From Pseudomonadota bacterium (lineage in GTDB: Bacteria; Pseudomonadota; Alphaproteobacteria; Rhodospirillales; Rhodospirillaceae): 61,606 nucleotides of DNA. Shown piece by piece: positions 44,978-52,313 of the stretch (its first letter is position 1; every line of letters starts with the position of its first letter). Where the stretch lies: contig JAIUPE010000007.1 in the NCBI GenBank assembly GCA_020160875.1, positions 1 through 61,606 of the forward strand, read 5' to 3'. Made by a program: the position numbers and the translations under genes. Below the pieces are notes generated by a model. The model was not told the origin of the DNA. It saw only the letters and a list, made by a program, of their open reading frames with translations, and did not search any database.

Positions 44978-45007
44978 AAATGCCCCGCGAAAGCGGGGCA
45001 TTTTTTT
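44978..45007 (+). terminator. Intrinsic terminator after rplS
   Basis: An 11-bp stem (44978-44988 with 44993-45003) closed by a GAAA tetraloop runs into seven consecutive Ts (45001-45007). It ends the ribosomal operon and insulates the octad-repeat gene. Confidence 0.92.
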
Positions 45008-45126
45008 GCAACCATTCGTTAATTTCGGGCGTATTACCCTTTGGCGAAATGGGGTAGTTTATCTGCACTCAATAGTGTGGCCCCGGGGCGAAGTTTCGGG
45101 CGTTCTATCTCCCGAATGGGGATGTC

Positions 45127-48000
45127 ATGGCGTTAAGCGCGACCGAGATTCAGGCGATGTCGACGACCGACATCGGGAATCTATCCACGACAACCGTCGG
45201 TCAGCTGACATCCACCGAAATCAATCTTTTTACGTCCGTCCAATTCAGTGCGCTGAGTTCCGCGCAGCTCGACTATCTGTCGGTGCGTGCCATCGGCGCA
45301 ATGAACGTCGGCGTTTTCAGCGGCATGAGCGCCGATCAGTTCCAGAGCTTGAACTCCAGCCAGATCCGCGCGATCGCCGTCACCAATATTCCGCAACTCA
45401 CGACCACCCATATGGCGGGCCTCGTGGCGGCGCAAATTTCCGGTTTCACGGTTTCGCAGCTCAACGCGATGTCGACGACCATCATCGCAGGCCTTACGAC
45501 CGGCCAGCTTGACGGTCTCACCACAGGACAGATCGCCGGTCTTTCCGTTACCGCATTCGACGCGCTCAGCGCCGATCAGATCCTCAGCTTCTCGGGCGCT
45601 CAGCTCGGTGCGTTGAGCGGCGCGAATTTCGGTGCGCTTGACCCCACGGAAATCGATGATTTCACCGACACGCAGATCGACGGGCTCAAGACCACGCAGA
45701 TCAAGGCGATCGATTCCGTCGATGTCACGGGCCTGACGTCCACCCAGATCGCCGGGTTCAGCACCCTGCAGATCAAGGCGCTCGATACGCGCGCGATCAT
45801 GGCCATGTCGACCACGCAGCTGCAGGGGCTCAATGCGACATTGATCGCGGCGCTTTCGACGCAGCAGATCAACGCGATGTCGACCCTGGCATTTTCTTCG
45901 TTGTCGACGACGCAGATCGCCGGACTCACGCGCTCTCAAATGGGCGGCCTGGACGCGCTGCATATGAGCGCGATGTCCGATACGGCGATCGCACACCTTA
46001 CGAGCGCACAAATCAAAGGACTGAAGTCGAGCCAGGTCGCGGCGCTTTCGACCACGCAGCTCCAGACGCTCTCGACCACACAGATCGGCTCCCTTATGCG
46101 GACGCAGGTGTCCGGGCTTAGCGATTCCGACATTGGACTGCTCACGCCTGCGCAATACGAGGCCTATTTGATGGTGCGCGGCACGCCGCTCAGCACCACG
46201 CAGATCAGCCAGTTATCGACGACGCAGTTCAGCGCTTTCTCCGCGACCATCATCAAGTCGCTGACGTCTTCGCAAGTTGCCGCTCTGACGCCGACCTTGA
46301 TTGCGCAGATGACGACGACGCAGATCGGCGGCCTGACGATGAACAATATCAAGGGGCTGACGACGACGCAGATGGCGGTGCTGTCTACGGCCAACTACGC
46401 GGCGCTCACCGAGACGCAATTGGGTGGGCTCTCGTCGAAGCAGATGGCCGCGATGAAATCAACGCAAATTGCCGCGATCTCCACGGCGAATATCGCCGCC
46501 CTGACCACAACACAGCTCGCCGGCTTCAAGGCGACGCATATCAGCTCGCTCACGTCGGCACAGATTGGCTCCATCAGTCTGGGCAACGTCATCGAACTCA
46601 CCGCCGACCAGATGCGCGCGTTCAAGTCGACGCAAATCACCGCGTTTTCCACGGCGCAGTTCGCGGCCTTCACATCAACGCAAATTGGTCAATTGGCGGG
46701 TTCGCAGGTCTCGGGCATCACCACCGCGCAGTTTGCGCAACTGACCTCCACCGAAATCGGACAGCTCAGCGCCACGGCACTCAAGGCCTTCACGACGGCC
46801 GCGATGTCCGGCCTCACCGTGGCCCAACTCGGCGGACTGGCGGCGGACGGCATCGGCGCGCTGAGCGCCACGCAAATCGGCAGCCTGTCGACGGCGATCT
46901 TCGCAAGTCTTTCGACGACGCAGCTCTCCGGACTCACGGCGGCTCAATTCAAGGCCGTGAGCATTACGCAGCTTAACGCGCTGACCACGACCAACGTCGC
47001 CGGCCTTGACGAAGACCAGATCAAGTCGCTCGCCGCGACCCAGATCGGCGGCTTGACGACGGCCCAGTTTGTCGCGCTCACCAGCACGCAGTTCAGCCAG
47101 CTCAGTAACCAGCAAATCGGCGGCATTACGATCGGTCAGCTTTCGCAGATGACCTCCACGCAAATCGGCGACCTCTCGTCGGCCTCATTGCGGGCGTTTA
47201 GTGCGACCGCCATCGCGAGTCTCAGCGCCGCTCAATTCGCGGGTTTGTCGGGTACCGATATCGGAGCTCTCTCCGGGTCCGTCGTCTCCAATCTTTCGAC
47301 GGCGATCTTCGCCAGCCTGACGACCAGCCAGGCCTCGGGCCTCACGGCCATGCAGATCAAGGCGCTGACGACCGTTCAGATCGCCTCGTTGACGGCGGCG
47401 GCGATCGGTTCGCTCGACACCACGCAAGTGCGAGCCTTGGCCGCTTCGCAAATCTCGGCCATGACTACGACCCAATTCCGTTCGCTTACCTCGACGCAGA
47501 TCGGCGAACTCTCTGCGCAGCAGATCGCAGGCGTCACCGCGACGCAAATCGCGCAAATGACCTCGACGCAAATCGGTGAACTTTCGTCTACGGCGCTCAA
47601 GGCGTTCAGCGCGACCGCCATCGCCGGGCTGACGACCACGCAGTTCGCCGGCCTCTCGTCGACCGCGATTGGCGGTCTGACGTCGTCGCAAATTGCACGT
47701 TTGTCCTCGACGCTCCTCAGCGGCCTGACGATTGCGCAGTTCTCGGGTTTCAACGCCTCACAGATCAAAGCATTCACGACGACGCAGATCACGGCGTTGA
47801 CGGGCGTGACGATCGCATCCCTGTCGGTGACGCAGGTCGGCGGGCTCGAGGCCGCCGACATCGCGGCCTTCTCGACGGTGCAAGTCACCTTCCTGACGAC
47901 AACGCAGCTTGGGGCGATGAGCGCGCAGCAGGCGGCCGCGTTCACCGGACCTCAAATCTTCGCGTTCACGACCACGCAGATCCACGCGCTTTTCGGCTAG
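45127..48000 (+). CDS. Giant octapeptide-repeat protein (119 octads)
   Basis: The 957-residue protein is MA, then exactly 119 eight-residue repeats without a phase break, then LFG. The consensus is [LFMI]-[ST]-x-[ST]-[QA]-[ILFV]-x-[AGS], e.g. [16 protein letters not shown]. Hydrophobic residues fall at 1 and 6, Ser/Thr at 2 and 4, Gln at 5, small at 8. Only octad 44 (YLMVRGTP) is clearly degenerate. There is no signal peptide, no membrane helix and no cysteine. Octads 65-115 form three 17-octad super-repeats. I do not recognise a named family and give no function; a solenoid (beta-helix-like or stacked short helices) is expected. The gene stands alone: terminator before it, and the Mpo1-like gene converges with a four-base overlap. 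ATG 45127 was chosen because the repeats begin two codons later. Confidence 0.85.
46669..47076 (+). repeat. 17-octad super-repeat, copy 1
   Basis: 408 bases = 17 octads (65-81 of the protein). Octads line up one-to-one with copies 2 and 3, for example octad 5 LSATALKA, octad 10 LSTAIFAS and octad 12 LTAAQFKA. Confidence 0.75.
47077..47484 (+). repeat. 17-octad super-repeat, copy 2
   Basis: Octads 82-98. Matching units include LSSASLRA (5), LSTAIFAS (10, identical to copy 1), LTAMQIKA (12) and LDTTQVRA (15). Confidence 0.75.
47485..47892 (+). repeat. 17-octad super-repeat, copy 3
   Basis: Octads 99-115. Matching units include MTSTQIGE (4; copy 2 has MTSTQIGD), LSSTALKA (5), FSATAIAG (6; copy 2 FSATAIAS) and FNASQIKA (12). 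Four further octads (116-119) begin a fourth, incomplete round. Confidence 0.75.
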
Positions 48001-48347
48001 CCTGAAACCCGGGCGTGGCTCACGCCCGCCCGCTCCAGGTGTGGACGCAACCGGCCTGTGATCCACAGACCGAACATCCTGAAATCACTGATGAGCGACC
48101 ATGCCGGATAGGTGAATGTCGCCGGGCGGTTACGCTCGACTGCGGCATGGGCGATCCAGGCAAAACCGTAGCCGGCCAGAGGCACCAGGAACCAAGCCGC
48201 GCCGCCCGCCAGAGCAGCATGAATCGCGCATGCGATGGCAAGGCTCGTCCCCGCATAATGCAATCCGCGGGTTGCCGGGCGCGCATGCTCGCGCAGATAG
48301 AAGGGCCAGAATTCAGCGTAGCTTGCGATCCTAAGGGGCGTCGCCAT
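47997..48347 (-). CDS. DUF962 / Mpo1-like membrane protein
   Basis: The 116-residue protein opens with the DUF962 signature [22 protein letters not shown] (given here in parts: FYLREH and [11 protein letters not shown], about 15-35). Two hydrophobic hairpins follow, then the late [25 protein letters not shown] segment (HAxxERNxPxTF). The yeast relative Mpo1 is a dioxygenase that alpha-oxidises 2-hydroxy fatty acids in the ER. A similar lipid-linked role is possible here; the paired histidines are kept. Its stop overlaps that of the octad-repeat gene by four bases. Confidence 0.85.
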
Positions 48348-51593: not shown

Positions 51594-52313
51594 TCACTTC
51601 GCGCGGGCGCCGGCCGCGCCAGAGACCGAGCCGGCCCCATTGGCGCCGCCGCTTACGGCGCCGGGCGTCGTGGACAGGCCGCCGGACGTTGCAGCGCTGC
51701 CGGAGACAGCGGAGTTCGCGGACGCCGGGTCGGCTTCAAGCGCGATGCTCGAAGATGAACCGCCTCCTACCGACACGCCGGTATTACGCGCCGCGCCCGC
51801 CGCGCCTTTCGCCTGACCGCGCGCGACATTTGCCGCGCCGACCGCATTTCCGGTCGCGACACCGGCCGCGCCACGGGCATGACCTTCGCCGACGCTCGAA
51901 GCGCCGGTCACGTTCCCGGTCACGACACCGGCCGTGTTGGCCGCCGCCCGGCCGGTGACATCGACGCCAGCCTCGGCATTGGCTCTCGCCGCGCCGGTCG
52001 CGCCGCCTGCCGTCGAGGCGCCAGCCTCAACGCCGCCGCGGGCCCGCGCGCGGGCCTTCCTGCCGGTGTCGTCGACCGAACCCTTGGCGCGTGAGGTTGC
52101 ACGGGCCGCACCGGAAAGATCCGGCCGGTCAAGATGACCGCCCAGACTGCCGGAGCCGCTCAAACCGCCACCCAAACCGCCGCCGCCGAGACCGCCAACC
52201 GCGCCGGCGCTGCCACCAAGCGCACCACCAGCGCTGCCGCCCAAGACCTGGGCCCCTGCCGGGCCGGCGGCGATGACCGCCATCGCCGTGACCATAAGAA
52301 ACTGCTTAAACAT
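51594..52313 (-). CDS. Secreted Gly/Ala-rich low-complexity protein
   Basis: The 239-residue protein has a signal peptide (about 1-21, MFKQFLMVTAMAV...AGPAGA-Q). The rest is Gly, Ala, Ser, Val and Arg. Residues about 22-60 are a Gly-rich run. Further on a ~22-residue unit recurs (GVVTGNVTGASSVGEGHARG, then GVATGNAVGAANVARGQAKG). No domain is recognised and no cysteine is present, so it is probably a flexible or filamentous envelope protein; this is inference. The frame is continuous with an ATG start at 52313, and the signal peptide supports it as real. It is divergent from sdhC. Confidence 0.65.
   Translation of the reverse strand: MFKQFLMVTAMAVIAAGPAGAQVLGGSAGGALGGSAGAVGGLGGGGLGGGLSGSGSLGGHLDRPDLSGAARATSRAKGSVDDTGRKARARARGGVEAGASTAGGATGAARANAEAGVDVTGRAAANTAGVVTGNVTGASSVGEGHARGAAGVATGNAVGAANVARGQAKGAAGAARNTGVSVGGGSSSSIALEADPASANSAVSGSAATSGGLSTTPGAVSGGANGAGSVSGAAGARAK

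Follow-up and report, generated by a model that had tools for sequence, protein, structure and literature searches.

The 61,606-nt DNA stretch analysed here (the window; contig JAIUPE010000007.1 of assembly GCA_020160875.1, family Rhodospirillaceae) carries, between rplS and a convergent Mpo1-like gene, a gene for a protein built of eight-residue repeats (octads; Table 1). We observed that its 957-residue translation divides exactly into 2 residues, 119 in-phase octads and 3 residues without insertion or deletion, as an earlier sequence-only reading had stated. Mean column entropy at period 8 was 2.365 bits, compared to 3.475 ± 0.012 for 1000 shuffles (shuffle minimum 3.437), so the periodicity lies far beyond chance. 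The octads follow the consensus [LFM]-[ST]-x-[TAS]-Q-[ILFV]-x-[AGS]: position 1 is L/F/M/I/V in 118 of 119, position 6 is L/F/M/I/V/A in 116/119 and position 5 is Q in 74/119. Octad 44 fits none of the six class positions of the consensus given in the sequence-only reading, and nine other octads fit two or three of them. Above the octad level we found a spacing of 17 octads (408 nt). The protein has few charged residues and no extra terminal domain, and no signal peptide is visible by eye (no predictor was run), again as had been claimed. At the C-terminus, where a type I secretion signal would lie, many octad proteins look alike by eye. The 67-residue terminal identity to the best non-ortholog (0.45) did not exceed the maximum of an internal null (0.48), and similarity of either terminus to non-orthologs was therefore not used as evidence.

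The same site between rplS and the Mpo1-like gene holds an ortholog (L045) in the metagenome-assembled genome Rhodospirillaceae bacterium SJ625. The ortholog has 128 octads and is separated from the window protein by one clean gap of exactly 72 residues (9 octads); the remainder is 86% identical. The nonsynonymous rate (dN) was 0.083 and the synonymous rate (dS) 0.899, a dN/dS ratio of 0.093. Position 5 is the most constrained, being identical between the two proteins in 117 of 119 octads, compared to 10 to 25 differences at each of the other positions, and all 45 octads of the window with a residue other than Q at position 5 are also non-Q in L045. Structural selection on the octad array, which the sequence-only reading had proposed, is thus supported by the low dN/dS and the gap of exactly nine octads.

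Table 1 Features of the octad gene and its surroundings in the window
Feature	Position	Strand	Remarks
Terminator-like hairpin and T-run after rplS	44980..45007	+	read by eye; conserved with ortholog
Conserved leader	45008..45127	+	112/120 columns identical to ortholog L045
Inverted repeat CTCCCGAATGGGGA, 14 nt, member of CTCCMGAAYGGRGA	45109..45122	+	just upstream of start codon
Octad-repeat protein gene	45127..48000	+	957 aa, ~97 kDa, pI 5.06, 28% Ser+Thr, no Cys or Trp; open reading frame (ORF) open
119 consecutive in-phase octads	45133..47988	+	one short helix per octad predicted
127-nt stretch in three copies 408 nt (17 octads) apart	46736..47678	+	higher-order repeat
Convergent Mpo1-like gene	47997..48347	-	neighbour used for synteny; Pfam name via relative L142:7710-8144

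The sequence-only reading had implied that no described family covers this repeat. Instead, we found that the window protein matches PF20080 ("ALTTAQ repeat") of Pfam with 356.1 bits, compared to a curated cut-off of 26.4, over 41 stretches. The Pfam model describes the same repeat; in the search output it is a repeat model without a function, whereas here the whole protein consists of octads and the context of its relatives suggests a pathway. We found no function for PF20080, and literature searches on ALTTAQ, PF20080 and HeliScrew gave no paper in the library searched; the papers listed by further searches do not, judged by title, concern such proteins. The octad had rightly been set apart from RTX, pentapeptide, TPR and HEAT repeats, none of which is among the five Pfam families listed at E ≤ 1. 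Two further Pfam families, LRR_EndoS and CAAP1, scored above their own cut-offs; no single stretch passes alone, and they were taken as repeat or composition artefacts. NCBIfam gave nothing close to any cut-off for the window protein, PADLOC gave no match, and no relatives were found among phages and viral contigs; a literature search on phage receptor-binding proteins also returned no paper.

Octad proteins are patchily distributed. Of 73 genomes from the same taxonomic family 28 have them, as do 5 of 193 sampled across the class (own genome counted). Within the genus, 14 of the 19 genomes carry relatives of the window protein. Caulobacter vibrioides alone was positive among 14 control genomes. 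Among 72,556 plasmid records, 59 carry the family, 41 of these from Rhizobium, Shinella or Cereibacter. On a Pseudoroseomonas plasmid (L078:5066-10153) the octad coding region is broken into several ORFs and lies beside genes of a type I secretion system (T1SS). The longest array among the octad ORFs tabulated has 540 octads; breaks are few and often consist of a single 7-residue gap. An array of this size is encoded in the same genus (L136:3679-16677; 4332 aa, one 7-residue break), and proteins of this length would rank among the longest uniform natural solenoids. The genome of the window has a second octad gene (L013:6831-12326, contig C42; 1831 aa, 224 octads) with a different N-terminus and an adjoining TetR regulator gene.

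AlphaFold2 modelled a segment of 17 octads with a mean predicted local distance difference test score (pLDDT) of 93.6 and a predicted template modelling score of 0.85, placing a helix in 17/17 octads. The full-length model (pLDDT 78.6) has mostly one helix per octad, and no strand was reported in either prediction. The octad protein is thus predicted to be an all-helical solenoid with one short helix per octad. This bears on the proposal of the sequence-only reading that the array resembles ice-nucleation or ice-binding solenoids. Such β-solenoids carry TxT faces, and the octad periodicity and the frequent Ser/Thr at positions 2-4 do recall them. However, nearly all octads are predicted to be helical, and no ice-protein family is found in Pfam at E ≤ 1. 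We rejected the ice hypothesis on the predicted fold and consider it highly improbable. Among solved structures, HeliScrew4 (PDB 9zem chain A, 120 residues) aligned without gaps with residues 769-867, about 12 octads (E = 1.9e-11). This likeness is one of sequence; HeliScrew4 was absent among the 50 Foldseek matches listed. Most PDB matches below it were leucine-rich repeat proteins, which we took as repeat or composition artefacts. Mesothelin-type solenoids, right-handed and made of short helices, are described, in the available text of PMC10035497, as mixtures of ARM and HEAT repeats that span 27-37 residues and share little homology with one another. These repeats differ from the strict 8-residue units seen here, and the available part of a mesothelin prediction paper (PMC2628672) mentions no bacteria.

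For periods longer than one octad, the analysis covered 46 arrays with 60 octads or more, without duplicates (shorter ones and the copy L159 were left out; some of the arrays are mutual orthologs). In 37 of them the summed residue spectrum was highest at 3.35-3.55 octads. After exclusion of pairs in similar or duplicated blocks, the autocorrelation of the family still rises and falls with a 3.425-octad period across lags 1-44, and for the window protein alone the band power at 3.38-3.48 octads was reached by none of 1000 permutations. The Q5 column by itself exceeded all 100 permutations in 34/46 arrays, with a median period of 3.419; in several of these the peak is close to 2.0 or 2.4. The family-wide 3.43 signal comes most strongly from Q5, G8 and K7. 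Folding the octads into two sides revealed more acidic residues at position 2 and more Phe at position 6 on the non-Q side, and a higher frequency of Lys7 on the Q side; the folding was phased on Q5 itself, so that only the other positions are informative. We read the period of ~3.43 octads (27 residues) as one probable superhelical turn, with one distinct face.

Next to several relatives lie genes for export and glycosylation, the products of which (HlyB, HlyD and family-41 glycosyltransferase, GT41) were identified with NCBIfam and Pfam, each applied to ten proteins. The order hlyB-hlyD-octad in one direction is found in L139, L146, L153, L115 and L199-L202. Of 42 loci scanned, 7 have a T1SS pair close to octads (L139, L146, L153, L115, L080, L078 and, as annotated, L075), the scan covering all GT41-surveyed loci except L162. 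With a threshold for full-length HlyB-like matches of at least 580 bits (the curated cut-off of the model is 725.55), such a match is present in 8/19 genomes of the genus. Seven of the eight adjoin an octad gene, and the eighth (G005) sits at a contig edge that cuts hlyD. For GT41, a tblastn survey with four queries from octad loci covered 43 octad loci, 12 of which have a relative in the fetched flanks, ~4 kb off in two (L080, L147). Four loci have the order octad-GT41-octad (L143, L146, L153, L157), the enzyme bears TPRs in L075 and L157, and GT41 accounts for 6 of 75 mechanically picked neighbour ORFs in a first set.

Two known systems offer precedents, by analogy, for the cytoplasmic action of a GT41 or TPR-glycosyltransferase enzyme on a protein destined for export. 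In the HMW1-HMW1B-HMW1C system of Haemophilus, as described in the available text of PMC3983070, a GT41 enzyme acts in the cytoplasm to glycosylate an adhesin that is exported; the system uses two-partner secretion and an N-linked sugar, and HMW1C lacks a TPR fold. Octad relatives differ in their T1SS linkage and, in L075 and L157, their TPR-bearing GT41, and their glycosylation is putative. FlmG of Caulobacter has TPR and GT-B domains and O-glycosylates flagellin in the cytoplasm before export, according to the available text of PMC7591256. Its substrate, flagellin, differs, and a relation to the octad-linked GT41 genes would be putative. A literature search on GT41 with type I secretion found no paper. 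The octad protein might instead be a secreted, unglycosylated spacer or stalk that holds a terminus off the cell, with the neighbouring GT41 modifying other surface proteins such as flagellin. The four octad-GT41-octad arrangements argue against such a spacer, as does the absence from the window protein of any extra terminal domain that a stalk would hold out, and we regard it as unlikely.

We surveyed the rplS-mpo1 site in 17 loci (the window, L045 and 15 others). An octad gene is present in three (the window, L045, L192), and in four (L182, L185, L186, L195) the rplS and mpo1 BLAST matches are only ~90-115 bp apart. In four others (L183, L187, L188, L189) a GT41 relative adjoins mpo1, at the site of the window octad gene. 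The remaining six have an insert left unanalysed (L184, L190, L194, L196) or a stretch without an rplS match (L191, L193). Presence and absence at one genomic site weigh against the possibility that the protein is a cytoplasmic solenoid scaffold, similar to ARM or HEAT proteins, which would bind proteins or nucleic acid along the screw groove and for which the T1SS and GT41 links of relatives would be irrelevant to the window copy. Such a scaffold is also difficult to reconcile with the Ser/Thr content of 28%, the scarcity of charged residues, the patchy presence in family and class and the T1SS linkage of relatives, and we consider it a lesser, somewhat doubtful possibility.

The leader of the octad gene is kept at 112 of 120 columns in L045, despite 0.52 synonymous differences per site in the gene itself. 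As a terminator-like hairpin with a T-run lies after rplS, the octad gene probably has its own promoter; a computational scan did not list this hairpin and gave no sigma-70-type promoter match. The 3' arm of CTCCCGAATGGGGA is likely the ribosome-binding site, and for this reason our guess is that the element is a translation-controlling hairpin. The pattern CTCCMGAAYGGRGA was built from octad leaders, so that its presence there is not independent; its specificity is. It has 13 matches in the 19 genomes of the genus, compared to none for the reversed control pattern, and all 13 precede octad sequence, 12 an octad gene and one a remnant (loci: window, L203-L215). The remnant (L208, G018:C255) has ~3 octads after the element and a leader ORF, and seems to be an octad gene in decay. 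In 11 of the 13 cases a leader ORF, 22-40 codons long, starts 5-7 nt past the element, and its stop lies at most 16 nt from the called octad start in 9 of 10 cases with an octad gene, L215 being the exception. For the window and for L206, it is the octad ATG that lies 4 nt past the element. Among 46 tabulated octad genes, the exact element occurs within 300 nt in 11 (window and ortholog both counted) and with 1-2 mismatches in six more. The second octad gene of the own genome lacks CTCCMGAAYGGRGA within 300 nt, and genes with N-termini like it (by eye) have no element at ≤2 mismatches. Within the element 97.5% of arm cells pair, compared to 36-66% with slid partners. No pair is changed on both sides and shuffles score equally, so pair counting does not choose between an RNA hairpin and a DNA dyad; only G-U changes lean towards RNA. 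Rfam gave four matches on the leader, all far below gathering scores, and whole-leader folding was no better than shuffles (z -0.59).

The best explanation of these observations, to which we give about an even chance, is an exported, probably O-glycosylated, all-helical screw fibre. Each octad would form one short helix and a turn, stacking into a solenoid screw whose core would presumably hold L1 and I6. A superhelical turn would take ~3.43 octads, and position 5, as Q or non-Q, would mark one side of the screw. The protein would be made in the cytoplasm, O-glycosylated there on Ser/Thr by a TPR-type GT41, exported via a T1SS, as the relatives suggest, and may serve outside the cell as a fibre, adhesin or matrix protein. 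Expression of the window gene and part of the family would probably be controlled by the hairpin-like element over the ribosome-binding site. Export is a weaker proposition for the window copy than for T1SS-linked relatives: since the window carries no T1SS gene, the exporter would have to be encoded elsewhere.

Several observations weigh against this explanation. The dS of the octad gene (0.90) is above that of rplS, trmD, rimM, lysE and asd (0.18-0.59). Another top peak was found in 9 of 46 arrays, the Q5 column of the window protein peaks at 2.11 octads, not 3.43, and no PDB match at E ≤ 0.001 came from Foldseek. The 25 families listed for a second set of 60 neighbour ORFs do not include GT41, 31/43 octad loci show no GT41 and 35/42 scanned loci show no T1SS pair (some flanks in both surveys being cut by contig ends). 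Because GT41 is widespread in the lineage, being present in 37 of 41 genomes, part of its adjacency may be chance. No HlyB-like match in the 19 genomes reaches the curated cut-off, and the four ABC proteins among those identified by profile are also below it, with HlyD partners above theirs. The sequence-only reading had seen no secretion gene nearby; this stands for the window, where tblastn at 1e-10 found no HlyB, HlyD or GT41 relative, and fails for those relatives that adjoin T1SS genes. No HlyB-like match of full length is present in the own genome (91% complete), the best reaching 392 bits; on contig C106 of this genome, an LssB/PrtD-like ABC protein, below the cut-offs of those models, lies next to an HlyD that passes its own.

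More tentatively, octad arrays could form the structural subunit of helical-screw fibres that are exported and glycosylated and belong to an undescribed class, with ~3.43 octads per turn, a conserved position-5 code by which one face is marked for packing or binding, a TPR-GT41 and HlyB/HlyD exporter dedicated to them, and their own cis-element over the ribosome-binding site, common to octad genes across the genus. We hold this wider proposal to be possible, with the balance tilted against it. The observations as a whole would tie PF20080 to a pathway of export and glycosylation and give the octad code a structural reading. The element, found in this genus only at octad genes, would provide a handle on the timing of their synthesis.

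Elsewhere in the window, positions 51594-52313 (minus strand) encode a 239-aa, Gly/Ala-rich, low-complexity protein with an apparent signal peptide by eye.
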